Source: an uncultured Synechococcaceae cyanobacterium (GTDB taxonomy: Bacteria; Cyanobacteriota; Cyanobacteriia; PCC-6307; Cyanobiaceae). Taken from it: 35,701 bases of DNA. Shown here piece after piece: positions 20,924-26,620 of this stretch (positions are counted from its first letter, which is position 1; every line of letters starts with the position of its first letter). A program made the position numbers and the translations under genes. The stretch is taken from the NCBI GenBank assembly GCA_903907855.1, contig CAIVPT010000048.1:1-35701 (forward strand), in the 5' to 3' direction. The notes below the pieces were generated by a model that ran no database searches, had not been told where the DNA came from, and saw only the letters and a program-made list of their open reading frames with translations.

Positions 20924-21511
20924 TCAGGGGACCAGTTTCGGATCGATCAGAGAGGTATAGCGCGCTTCGCACTCCTTGACGATCTTCACGGCCTCCGTCG
21001 CATCGAAGAAGCCGTTCACCCGGCAGGTGCCGGGTTTCTTGAGGTCCTTGTAGTGCTCCCAGTAGTACTGGGTTTCCGTGAGCCAGTGGTCGCCCAGCTG
21101 GGTGTAGCTGGTGATGTGGTCCATCCGCTTGTCATCGGCCAGCACGGCGATCACCTTGTCATCCACCTCGCCACCATCGTCGAATTTCATGATGCCGATG
21201 ATGCGGGCCTCCACCAGGGATCCCGGCACGAGCGGTTCGGTCACCCCCACGATCTCGATATCGAGTGGGTCGCCATCCTCATCCCAGGTGCGGGGAATGC
21301 AGCCATAGGCGAAGGGATAGGCCAGGGAGCTGTAGCCGACCCGGTCGAGCTTGAGATGGCCGGTTTCGGTGATCAGCTCGTACTTGTTGATTGTGTTGGA
21401 ATTGAGCTCCACAATCGCGTTCAGGCGCAGCTCCGCTTCCTCGGCGAAGGCCGGCAGCACGTGCAGGAGGTTGAGCATCGTGCGGCTCGGGGCGTGGTCG
21501 ATGTTCGCCAT
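20924..21511 (-). CDS. ppa: Inorganic pyrophosphatase (family I)
   Basis: Hydrolyses pyrophosphate released by biosynthetic reactions and so pulls them forward; cytoplasmic and Mg-dependent. The 195-residue protein has the N-terminal IVELNSNTINKYEL, the acidic metal-binding core (DEDGDPLDIEIV, DDKVIAVLADD) and the downstream FFDATEAVKIV segment. Length is somewhat above the bacterial 170-180 owing to a 20-residue N-terminal extension, as in other cyanobacteria. ATG 21511 begins it. The M32 carboxypeptidase gene is 24 bases upstream in the direction of transcription, so the two are probably co-transcribed. Confidence 0.96.
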   Translation of the reverse strand: MANIDHAPSRTMLNLLHVLPAFAEEAELRLNAIVELNSNTINKYELITETGHLKLDRVGYSSLAYPFAYGCIPRTWDEDGDPLDIEIVGVTEPLVPGSLVEARIIGIMKFDDGGEVDDKVIAVLADDKRMDHITSYTQLGDHWLTETQYYWEHYKDLKKPGTCRVNGFFDATEAVKIVKECEARYTSLIDPKLVP

Positions 21512-21535: not shown

Positions 21536-23098
21536 CTACGGGGTCTTGCCGGCCGCTCCGATCGCCTCCGCCAGCTTGCGCTCCAGGTGGTCGAGGAAGG
21601 GGCGGGCCTCCAGGGGCCGGCCGCTCAACTGTTCCACCAGCTCCGCGCCATTCACCGAGCGGCCCAGGGGCCACACATGCCGCCCCAGCCACTCCCCCAA
21701 CCGCAGGGTGTCGCCGTTGGCGATCACGGCCTCGATCGCACCCAGCTCGCTCTCCATCGTTTCCGCCAGCTGGGCACTGATCAGGTGACCCAGGGCGTAG
21801 GAGGGAAAGTAGCCAAACAGGCCCTCGGCCCAGTGGATGTCCTGCAGGCATCCCTCGCGGTCGCTGGCGGGCACCACCCCCAGCAGCTCCCCCATCCGCT
21901 CCCGCCACCGCTGCGGCAGCTCCGCCACCGGCATCTCCTGCTCGATCAAGGCCAGCTCCAGCTCAAAGCGCAGCACGATGTGCAGGCAGTAGCTGAGCTC
22001 TCCGGCCTCCACCCGGGTGGTTCCCGGCCGCAGGGGGTTGAGGGAGCGCCAGAAGCCGTCGGCATCGCCCCAGGGATCGCGGCCCAGGCCCTGGACGAAG
22101 CGCGGATGCCAGTGGGCGGCGAAGGCCCGGCTGCGCGCCACCCGGCATTCCCAGAACAGCGACTGGGATTCATGCACCCCCATCGAGGTGGCCTCCCCCA
22201 GGGGCCAGGGGAAGTAGTGCTCGTCCCCGCGCGGTAACCCCTGTTCGTAGAGGGAGTGCCCCCATTCGTGGGCGGTGGCGAGGAAGGCGGCCAACGGTTG
22301 ATCCGGCACCACGCGGGTGGTGATGCGGAAATCCCGTGGTCCCACAGTGCAGGAGAAGGGATGGGCGGAGCGGGCCCGCAGGCAGCGGGAGGGGTCGTAG
22401 CCCCAGGTCGCCAGCAACGCGGCGCAGAGGGAATCCTGCAGGGCCTCCGGCAGGTCGGGGGCGGCGCCCTCCGGCGGATCGGCGGCCCGCAGCCGCTCCA
22501 GCAGCACGGGGATCTCGGTCGCCAGCGGCGCGAACAGGGCCTGCAGGCGGGCGGTGCTGATGTCCGGTTCGAAGGTCTGGGCGAGGATTTCCCAGGGGCT
22601 GCGCGCCACCGGTTCGGCGTCGGCCAGCTGGGCCGCCTGCGCCCGCCGCAGCCGGATCATCTCGGTCAAGGCCGGAGCAAACGCCGCGAAGTCGTCGCGG
22701 CGCTTCGCCTCCTGCCACACCGCGTTGCCCCGCGACTGGGCGGCGGCGATCTGGCCCACCAGATCCGGATCGAGCCGCCGTTGCCGCTCCAGTTCCAGCC
22801 GCAGCAGGGCCAGGTTGCGGCGCAGGGCCGTTGGCGCCGCCGCGTCGCCGCGGGCCTGCGCCCCCTCCACCTCCATTTCCGCCGCCGCCAGCAGGTCGGC
22901 GTAGGAGGCGCTGCTCTGGCGTTCGTGCAACTGGCGGGCCAGCAGGGCCAGCTGTTCGCCCCGCCAGGCTGCACCGGCCGGAGGCATCACGGTGTTCTGG
23001 TCGAAGTAGAGGGCGCTGCTGATCGAGCCCAGCAGCCGGGTCTGGTGCAGATGCTCTTGAAGCTGCCGCACGGGATGGGGGAGGGCCGGGGCTGCCAT
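21536..23098 (-). CDS. M32 metallocarboxypeptidase (Taq type)
   Basis: A 520-residue thermostable-carboxypeptidase-Taq family enzyme that removes C-terminal residues from peptides. The catalytic metal motif HEWGH (277-281), the third ligand segment GVHESQSLFWE (307-317) and DFRITTR (256-262) are complete. The N-terminal part, LLGSISSALYFDQNTVMPP, matches the family start, so ATG 23098 is chosen. Its reading frame continues upstream without any stop into an AraC-type gene, to a GTG at 24247, giving a 903-codon open frame. I believe this is a by-product of a deletion in the AraC gene, not a true fusion. ppa follows 24 bases downstream. Confidence 0.93.
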   Translation of the reverse strand: MAAPALPHPVRQLQEHLHQTRLLGSISSALYFDQNTVMPPAGAAWRGEQLALLARQLHERQSSASYADLLAAAEMEVEGAQARGDAAAPTALRRNLALLRLELERQRRLDPDLVGQIAAAQSRGNAVWQEAKRRDDFAAFAPALTEMIRLRRAQAAQLADAEPVARSPWEILAQTFEPDISTARLQALFAPLATEIPVLLERLRAADPPEGAAPDLPEALQDSLCAALLATWGYDPSRCLRARSAHPFSCTVGPRDFRITTRVVPDQPLAAFLATAHEWGHSLYEQGLPRGDEHYFPWPLGEATSMGVHESQSLFWECRVARSRAFAAHWHPRFVQGLGRDPWGDADGFWRSLNPLRPGTTRVEAGELSYCLHIVLRFELELALIEQEMPVAELPQRWRERMGELLGVVPASDREGCLQDIHWAEGLFGYFPSYALGHLISAQLAETMESELGAIEAVIANGDTLRLGEWLGRHVWPLGRSVNGAELVEQLSGRPLEARPFLDHLERKLAEAIGAAGKTP

Positions 23099-23178
23099 CG
23101 GAGGGGGTGAACAGTGGCCCCCAGCATGGGCTAGGGGGGCGTATGGGCGTTGGCTGTATGGGCTCACCCCGGTTGCGC

Positions 23179-24247
23179 TCACCCTGCGTTGGCGCCTGCC
23201 CCGTTGGCCGCTCGCCGCGCCAGCAGCGTGGAAGGAGCCACAGCTGTAGGCGATGTCGCTCACCGTGCTGCCGGGCGGGGCCTGCTCCAGGCGGCGCCGG
23301 GCGAGCCACAGTCGCTGGCGCCGCAGGTACTGCATCGGACCACAGCCGAAGCGGGCCCGGAAGGCGTATTGAAGGCTGCGGCGCGAGTAGTGGGAGCGCT
23401 CCTCCAGGTCCGTGAGGCTGATCGATTCGTGGCAGTGGGCGTGCATCCAGTCGAGCAGCGAATCCAGCTGGCTGGTGCTGTGGTGCGGATCGGGGTCCCG
23501 GGGCTCGTGCAGCAGGGCTGGGGTGAGCAGTTCGACAATCAGACGCAGCAGCAGGTCATCGAGGCGCAGGGCCTCCGGCGGTTCGCCGTGGCGGCGAATC
23601 ACCCCGTGCAGAAACGCCAGCAGGCGGTAGAGCCGCTCGAACGGTGCTGTGTTGGCCCCCGCGCCGATCTCTCGCACCAGCGGCGTGCTCGCCACCCCCA
23701 GCCACCGTTCCGGCGGGCCCGCCGGTCCCCCCATCGTGCGGCCCACCGCCTGAATGTGCCCAGGATCCACCCGGATCGTCAGTCCCCCCAGCACGTCGTT
23801 GAAGGTGCGCCAGGGGCCGGGCGGCACCAGCAGCAGCGTGTGGCCGGTGAGATTGGAGAGGCTGCGCCGGCTGATGCGGAACTCACCCCGACCGCGATAG
23901 GGCACCACCACGGTGGCCCGCCGGCAGCCCTCCACCTCCCCCTGCAGCCCTGATCCCCACAGCGCCACGAGCTCCAGCGGCCCCAGCTGCAGGGCTCCGC
24001 CGTAGCAGAGAAACGGGGCCGAAGGGGAAGGCCGCCGCACCGGATCGCAGCTGCGCACCGGCATCAGCTGTCCCAGCTGCTCGGCCAGCTCCACCGGATC
24101 GCGGAACACCAGCGAGCGGCCGGGGAGTCCGAGCAACGGCATGGCCGGATCACGCAGGCAGTTAACGCCCCAGTGCGGCGGGAGGGTGAGCATCAGAGCC
24201 GGATGGTCGACGTGGTGCTGCGAAGCCGACCCAAAGTACCGATGCAC
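23179..24247 (-). pseudogene. AraC-family regulator with deleted second helix-turn-helix
   Basis: An AraC/XylS-type transcription factor. The sensor-like N-terminal half is intact-looking. The first DNA-binding helix-turn-helix region is present (SLTDLEERSHYSRRSLQYAF, then FGCGPMQYLRRQRLWLARRR). The second breaks off after VSDIAYSCG. In a shifted frame just downstream (about 23245 to 23179) I read VAPSTLLARR followed by a TGA at 23181-23179, which matches how such proteins end. The simplest reading is loss of roughly 16 residues plus a frameshift. In the current frame no stop occurs and the frame enters the M32 gene. The start is GTG 24247 or ATG 24193. The gene is divergent from the cation ATPase and shares an upstream region with a triple 11-base repeat. 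Confidence 0.7.
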
Positions 24248-24272
24248 TTCGCCGAGATGCCGATCCAGTCCG

Positions 24273-24305
24273 CCCGCTAGAGACCCGCTAGAGACCCGCT
24301 AGAGA
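24273..24305 (+). repeat. Perfect triple 11-base direct repeat between divergent genes
   Basis: CCCGCTAGAGA occurs three times without a break or mismatch (24273-24283, 24284-24294, 24295-24305). It lies between the AraC-type gene and the P-type ATPase, 20 bases before the ATPase ATG. The 11-base period is about one DNA turn, as for iterated operator sites. Each copy carries TAG, and because 11 is not a multiple of 3 the three TAGs close all three forward frames. Confidence 0.9.
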
Positions 24306-24325
24306 AGGGTCTGGCGGGAGGCCCG

Positions 24326-26620
24326 ATGGCGCTGCTGGAGCCCACCAACCTGCTGCTCCTTGCCTGTGCCCTCCTCTATGGGCTGATCGGCGAGCTGGGC
24401 GAAGCGGCGATCCTGCTTGTGTTTGTGCTGGCGATTGCGGCCCTCGATGGCTGGCAGCAGCAGCGCAGTCGCCGCGCGCTCGCCGAGCTGGCGCGGCTTT
24501 CGGCCCCCCGTGCCCGCGTCTGGCGGGGGGGGCAGGTGGTGGAGCTGCCCCCCGAGGCGCTGGTGCCGGGGGACCGCCTGCGGCTGGAGGAGGGCGATCG
24601 GGTGCCGGCCGATGCCCGGCTGGAGGAGGGGGTGGGCCTCTGGCTGGATGAATCGCTGCTCAGTGGCGAATCCCTACCGGTGCTGCGCCAGGAGCCCGGC
24701 GAGCCGATCCTCTCCGGTTCCCTCGTGGCCGCGGGCCGGGGATCGGCGGTGGTGGTGGCCGTGGGGGAAGCCACCGAGCTCGGCCGGCTGGGGCGCAGCC
24801 TGGCGACGGTGACGGCCCCGCCCACCCGCCTGCAGCGGCGCACCCGACGCCTCACCGCCCGGCTCACCGTGGTCGCCGTGGCGCTCTGCGTGGGGCTGGG
24901 TGTGCTGCAGGTGCTGCGGGGCGGCGATGGCACATCGGCGCTGCTGGCCTCCCTCGCCCTGGCGCTGGCGGTGCTGCCTAACGAGATTCCGGTGGTGTTG
25001 GCCCTGTTTCTGGCCCTGGGCGCCCTGCGGCTGGCGCGCCTCGGCGTTCTGGCCCGCTGGCCTGCGGCGGTGGAGAGCCTCGGCAGCGCCACCGTGCTGG
25101 CGGTGGACAAGACCGGCACCCTCACCGAGAACCGGATGGCGGTGGCCCAGCTTTGGCGCTGGCGGGATGGGGCGCTGTGGCGCGCTGGCCAGCCGCTGGA
25201 GGAGCCGTGGCATCGGCTGCTGGAGCTTGCCCTGCTGGCCAGCCGGCCCGATCCCGTCGATGCGATGGAGGTGGCGATCCAGCGGTGCGCCGCTGAGCAG
25301 CTGGGCGAGGCTGACCACCGCCATCCCGACTGGCCGCTGGCGCACGAGTACCCCCTGAGCCCCGATCTGCTGGTGTTCTCGCGGCTGTGGAGCGATGGTG
25401 CCGGTCGCTGGCGCCTGGCGACCAAGGGGGCGCCCGAGGCGATCGCCGACCTCTGCCACCTTGCCGCTGGACCACGCCAGGAGCTGCTCGCCGCCGCCAC
25501 CGCCCTGGCGGCCGAGGGGCTGCGGGTGCTGGCGGTGGCCACCGGCCTGGAGGGGGCGCCCCTGCACGGCCAGCGGCTGCCGCCAACGCAGCCACCCACC
25601 AGTGTTCACGACTTTTCCTTCGCGCCGGTGGGTCTGGTGGGCCTGGCGGATCCGCTGCGGCCGGAGGTGCCGGCCGCCATCGCGCGGGCCCGGGCGGCTG
25701 GCCTGCGGGTGCTGATGATCACGGGAGACGGTCCGGTCACCGCCAGCGCCATCGCCGAGCAGGTGGGCCTGGGGGGCGGGCCGGTACTCATCGGCCCAGA
25801 GCTGGAGGCGCTATCCGACGCCGACCTGGAGCAGCGCCTGGCCGTCACTTCAGTATTTGCACGGGTGCGGCCTGAGCAGAAGCTGCGGCTCGTGCGGTCG
25901 CTGCAGGCCGGCGGCGCCGTGGTGGCGATGACCGGCGACGGCGTCAACGATGCCCCTGCCCTGCGGGCCGCCGATATCGGCGTGGCCATGGGCGCCCGCG
26001 GCACCGCCGTGGCCCGGGAGGCGGCCGATCTTGTGCTCCTGCACGACTCCTTCGCCGCCCTGGTGGAGGCGGTGGCCATGGGGCGGCGCATCGAGGGGAA
26101 TCTGCAGCGGGCCCTCGGCTACACCCTGGCGATCCACCTGCCGATTGTGGTCCTGAGTTTGCTGCCGCTGCTGCAACCCCACCAGCCCCTGATCCTGCTG
26201 CCGGTGCACATCGCTCTGCTGCATCTGGTGATCGACCCGGCTTGCACGGTGGTCTTTGAGGCCCTGCCGGCCCGGCCGGAACAGATGCGGCAACCGCCCC
26301 GCCCGCCCGCTGCGCCGCTGTTGAACCCCGGAACCTGGCGGCGGGCCCTGCTCCAGGGCGGTGTGCTCAGCCTGGCGGCCCTGGCCGTGGCGCTCTGGCC
26401 TTCCCTGGCGGAGGACGTCCGCCGTTCCCTGGCCTTTGCCCTGCTGCTCCTGGCGGGAGGGGGGCTGGTGGCCTGGAACGGGGATCGTCGCGACCGCCTC
26501 ACGCGCCTGGCCATTCCCCTGAGCGTTCTGCTCTGGCTGGGGCTGATGGCCGTTCCGCCCGTGCGGGAGCTGCTGCGGCTGGCTCCCCTGCCGGTGTTCT
26601 TCGGCGACGGGCAATACTGA
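24326..26620 (+). CDS. P-type cation-transporting ATPase, short N-terminus
   Basis: A 764-residue P-type ATPase that pumps a cation using an aspartyl-phosphate. The SGES loop lies near residue 114, the phosphorylation motif DKTGTLTE starts at Asp261, KGAPE marks the nucleotide domain, and TGDGVNDAPAL the hinge. The membrane-4 motif is PNEIPVV (218-224) where related enzymes of this group have PEEFP or similar, and the late helix HIALLHLVIDPACTVVFE is typical of that group. The protein starts directly at the first membrane helix; the usual 40-60 residue cytoplasmic N-terminus is absent, and a TAG at 24278 blocks extension. Substrate is unclear: Ca2+, Mn2+ or another divalent ion. A response regulator gene follows after four bases. 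Confidence 0.85.
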   Translation: MALLEPTNLLLLACALLYGLIGELGEAAILLVFVLAIAALDGWQQQRSRRALAELARLSAPRARVWRGGQVVELPPEALVPGDRLRLEEGDRVPADARLEEGVGLWLDESLLSGESLPVLRQEPGEPILSGSLVAAGRGSAVVVAVGEATELGRLGRSLATVTAPPTRLQRRTRRLTARLTVVAVALCVGLGVLQVLRGGDGTSALLASLALALAVLPNEIPVVLALFLALGALRLARLGVLARWPAAVESLGSATVLAVDKTGTLTENRMAVAQLWRWRDGALWRAGQPLEEPWHRLLELALLASRPDPVDAMEVAIQRCAAEQLGEADHRHPDWPLAHEYPLSPDLLVFSRLWSDGAGRWRLATKGAPEAIADLCHLAAGPRQELLAAATALAAEGLRVLAVATGLEGAPLHGQRLPPTQPPTSVHDFSFAPVGLVGLADPLRPEVPAAIARARAAGLRVLMITGDGPVTASAIAEQVGLGGGPVLIGPELEALSDADLEQRLAVTSVFARVRPEQKLRLVRSLQAGGAVVAMTGDGVNDAPALRAADIGVAMGARGTAVAREAADLVLLHDSFAALVEAVAMGRRIEGNLQRALGYTLAIHLPIVVLSLLPLLQPHQPLILLPVHIALLHLVIDPACTVVFEALPARPEQMRQPPRPPAAPLLNPGTWRRALLQGGVLSLAALAVALWPSLAEDVRRSLAFALLLLAGGGLVAWNGDRRDRLTRLAIPLSVLLWLGLMAVPPVRELLRLAPLPVFFGDGQY

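Follow-up and report, generated by a model that had tools for sequence, protein, structure and literature searches.

Intact regulators of the AraC/XylS type carry a C-terminal DNA-binding domain with two helix-turn-helix (HTH) motifs, and peptidases of family M32 are characterized by a HEXXH zinc-binding motif. A search of the literature returned no paper combining an M32 carboxypeptidase, AraC, and fusion. Here, we analyzed a 35,701-nt stretch of DNA from an uncultured Synechococcaceae cyanobacterium (the window), in which, as an earlier note correctly reported, a single 903-codon open frame extends from 24247 to 21536, out of an AraC gene and into an M32 gene. We consider it quite likely that this frame joins a frameshifted AraC gene to an M32 peptidase that is translated separately, from its own leader. 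The features of the locus are as follows.

24247-21536, minus strand: fused open frame, 903 codons, GTG start
23237..24247, minus strand: AraC-type regulator, codons 1-337 read from the GTG, with HTH_AraC and HTH_18 matches
23235..23242, minus strand: site of the deletion, where 53 bp of the sister sequence L002 have no counterpart, the exact breakpoint being ambiguous among these bases
23179..23235, minus strand: out-of-frame remainder of the AraC C-terminus, VAPSTLLARRAANGAGANAG followed by TGA at 23181-23179
23099..23236, minus strand: junction of 138 nt, stop-free in the M32 frame, with two of the three frames lacking a stop
23090..23129, minus strand: leader stretch, 40 nt identical to L002, with CATGCTGG at 23128-23121 and the M32 ATG
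21536..23098, minus strand: M32 carboxypeptidase (Taq-type), 520 aa, with its own ATG
20924..21511, minus strand: gene downstream of M32, found after M32 in 30 of 30 genus loci

Comparison with M32 carboxypeptidases and AraC/XylS regulators

The peptidase part resembles carboxypeptidase Taq of family M32 in every respect but its upstream neighbor. Residues 395-891 match Peptidase_M32 (Pfam PF02074) with 445 bits over profile positions 1-488 of 489, and thus over its full length; the translation contains HEWGH, which fits HEXXH; and the gene is present in 42 of 42 genus genomes. The two genes that follow M32 are conserved in 30 of 30 genus loci, and we take the one at 20924..21511 to encode inorganic pyrophosphatase. 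Upstream regions were compared for 30 of the 42 genomes, the remaining 12 having yielded no locus. Among these, the AraC gene precedes M32 solely in the window and, by L002, in its sister species; none of the 28 other loci has it within the 1.3-1.5 kb searched, and the contig that carries M32 in the sister (L032) holds only 20 nt upstream of the M32 ATG. The contigs of the sister MAG break at the M32 start, where L002 and L032 share some 50 nt that differ at a single base, a G or a T just before the ATG, perhaps reflecting strain variation.

The regulator part is like other AraC/XylS-type regulators in matching both HTH_AraC (residues 268-309) and HTH_18 (residues 283-338) above the curated Pfam cut-offs, but differs from them in that its second HTH is truncated, with the HTH_18 match covering profile positions 3-56 of 80 only. 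The first HTH is intact by its HTH_AraC match. The reading ceases to match after VSDIAYSCG, exactly where the earlier note had placed the break, and the window AraC falls short of the two HTH motifs of an intact regulator. The continuation in the adjacent frame described in that note is likewise found: the ending of VAPSTLLARRAANGAGANAG, read by eye, is VAPSTLLARR (VAPSTVLARR in the sister L002), and the TGA at 23181-23179 is listed by a stop scan. The GTG at 24247 is a mechanical start call; ATG 24193 may be the true AraC start, since L003 and L004 read MLTIP where the window reads MLTLP, and in both of these loci the 20 codons upstream of MLTIP are also open.

A segment missing from the second HTH

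The nearest relative found is L002 (G033:C124), whose AraC is 91% identical to that of the window over 337 aa, with 92.5% DNA identity over codons 1-337. The second HTH of L002 is complete (CGYLSVSSFRRDFLSRFAVAPSTVLARR), and its HTH_18 match extends over profile positions 3-79 of 80 (vs. 3-56 in the window). Measured between flanking anchors, L002 exceeds the window by 53 bp (17 codons and 2 nt), close to the loss of about 16 codons that had been estimated from the window by itself. The second HTH is also complete in L003-L007; the comparison with AraC proteins of close relatives that the earlier note had advised, for which L002, L003, L004, L006, and L007 were aligned, gave the same answer. 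Given the complete HTH in L002-L007 and the 53-bp shortfall relative to L002, it is well supported that the window has undergone a frameshifting deletion, with predicted loss of the second HTH and its recognition helix, in agreement with what had been proposed. We infer a genuine deletion that occurred on the branch leading to the window. The proposal that the deletion also removed the stop codon does not hold, as the TGA is still there and the frame has moved off it. The L002 copy of the missing segment contains a perfect 7-bp inverted repeat, GCGTGAT-N5-ATCACGC, which might favor deletion.

By eye, 27 of 30 AraC-like loci of the genus carry the second HTH to its end, the exceptions being the window (L001), L016, and L017. 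Loss of the second HTH in the window exceeds chance, since 27 of the 30 loci keep it and both other exceptions are frameshifted. The AraC-like genes of L016 (2296-2509) and L017 (1343-1542) are frameshifted just past QRFGCGPMQWLRQ, with the remainder of the HTH in another frame, and the AraC tail of L025 also appears altered. Like other frameshifted bacterial genes, the window AraC belongs to a multi-copy family of which a member has been hit (L016 and L017 are frameshifted too); it differs from them in that its shifted frame is by chance open into the next gene.

Constraint on the remaining AraC codons

Comparison of the window with its sister gives dN/dS values of 0.30 for AraC codons 1-337 and 0.28 for M32, and the AraC codons look constrained. 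The AraC amino acid changes divide into 7 that are window-derived, 10 that are sister-derived, and 14 undecided, with no concentration on the window branch. The dN/dS values and this pattern of change count against the damaged-gene reading, although they fit either a deletion of recent date or a mistake in assembly, and they are compatible with a working chimera as well; damage to the AraC gene is probably recent.

Possible, although doubtful, is an error of assembly or consensus, in which case the organism would retain the 53 bp and have an intact AraC ending at the TGA at 23181. The draft genome consists of 320 contigs, AraC codons 1-337 appear constrained, and an unshifted AraC frame would reach that TGA, all of which are in favor of such an error; the single gap, alignable on both sides, is also expected of a true deletion. 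Improbable, and compatible with the explanation that we prefer, is that a shortened regulator retains a role with one HTH, translation extending across the junction or covering only a portion. The intact first HTH and the absence of an excess of window-derived changes speak for such a role, but the second HTH is kept in nearly all of the related loci (the 27 of 30 scored by eye), and a recent deletion would give the same pattern of changes.

The stop-free junction

The junction, scored from codon 337 to the M32 ATG (23098), would be open by chance in about half of random sequences (Markov model, 0.50; shuffling, 0.48); a stop-free run of this length is not beyond chance, and caution is called for because one is expected about half the time in such GC-rich sequence. 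The open frame had been attributed to removal of the AraC stop; L002 argues otherwise. Its AraC lacks the deletion, and no stop interrupts its frame between AraC and M32 codon 10, at which point the contig ends, so that the frame is open in both species and the deletion is not needed for it. Of the 28 other genus loci, 8, none of which has this AraC there, show no stop in the M32 frame over 138 nt or more before the gene (6 of 26 once L052 and L060, whose M32 starts are doubtful, are removed); the longest such frame, in one locus, is 1452 nt.

From the end of AraC to the leader, the spacer measures 59 nt in L002 and 103 nt in the window, with no clear alignment between the two. Relative to L002, the window is 53 nt shorter at the HTH and 44 nt longer in the spacer; the net difference of -9 nt is divisible by three, and both species keep the M32 phase, as expected of a retained fusion but with a chance of one in three.

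A conserved leader before M32

The 50 nt before the M32 start contain CATGCTGG, one mismatch being allowed, in 25 of 29 genus loci (19 exact), the window included, and in 24 of 28 (L033-L060) with the window left out; L032, with its 20 nt upstream, was omitted from this count. Three control intervals farther upstream (50-200 nt from the start) each give 0 of 29, and one inside the M32 gene gives 1 of 29. The motif is missing at one mismatch in 4 of 29 loci; L052 and L060, whose starts are probably wrong, were scored as misses, and both are among the eight loci with long open frames. Because the genomes are related, locus counts are non-independent, and those for CATGCTGG measure conservation, not probability. 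The sister's other contig, L032, differs from the leader stretch of the window by one base.

An in-frame stop lies between CATGCTGG and the M32 ATG in L042, L058, and L059, and a stop overlaps the end of CATGCTGG in L033. In these four loci, no more than 9-21 nt of open M32 frame precede the ATG, and M32 must therefore have an independent start. We view CATGCTGG as a putative promoter or leader element. A scan of 23000-24400 for sigma-70 promoters and terminators returned no site, which, like the four loci lacking the motif, counts against this view. As a candidate general promoter element, CCATGCTGGNGNC was set aside because of its few copies, 6 in the whole genome (1 for the backwards control). 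A one-mismatch scan of the window with GCCATGCTGG found 14 matches vs. 10.8 expected, no more than chance; what speaks for the motif is its position upstream of M32 in the genus loci.

Separate translation versus fusion

These data bear on a genuine AraC-M32 fusion or read-through in the two-species lineage, whose common ancestor would have lost the stop and passed on the open frame, which we regard as very improbable. A genuine fusion would keep a stop-free frame in related species, as L002 does; the length differences total a multiple of three; and dN/dS is similar, and below 1, for both parts. On the other hand, the spacers differ in length and are without clear alignment, conservation is confined to the M32 leader, which occurs elsewhere without this AraC, and the chimera in the window would be without its second HTH. 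A linker conserved at the protein level, as a genuine fusion would have, is not seen in the two species compared. The earlier note had named a fused frame with shared junction peptides in a close relative as the mark of a genuine fusion. L002 formally provides both, but we discount this match because the only junction peptide common to both species, HAGGHCSPPP, is read from M32 leader bases. That AraC is truly translated through into M32 in this lineage, the window species having traded its second HTH for a link to the peptidase, is scarcely credible.

A true regulator-peptidase fusion, as first suggested for this locus, is unlikely, since the M32 leader and start are conserved in genus loci that lack this AraC in the 1.3-1.5 kb upstream. 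We favor instead a frameshifted AraC gene followed by a separately translated M32. A loss of about 53 bp would have shifted the frame and taken the second HTH, recognition helix included, out of the AraC gene; the new frame would continue and happen to meet no stop before the peptidase; and the long open frame would be a by-product of GC-rich sequence. Expression of M32 very probably relies on the conserved leader of the gene itself and on the ATG at 23098, and the AraC product would be truncated or chimeric, probably no longer acting as an activator of the usual two-HTH kind, with regulator function presumably lost. The locus has the appearance of common gene damage rather than of a novel fused protein, and its biological weight is small. 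Automatic annotation could nevertheless call a 903-aa "regulator-peptidase" that probably does not exist, and misplace the M32 start.

A contig search with the AraC alignment, which possibly omitted the records of the window's own genome, returned five loci (L067-L071). L067 is the sister, in which an ATPase gene lies beside AraC and the 10-codon piece of M32 went unmatched in that search. L068-L070 show neither an M32 nor an ATPase match within 4 kb on either side of AraC, and L071 is a distant relative.
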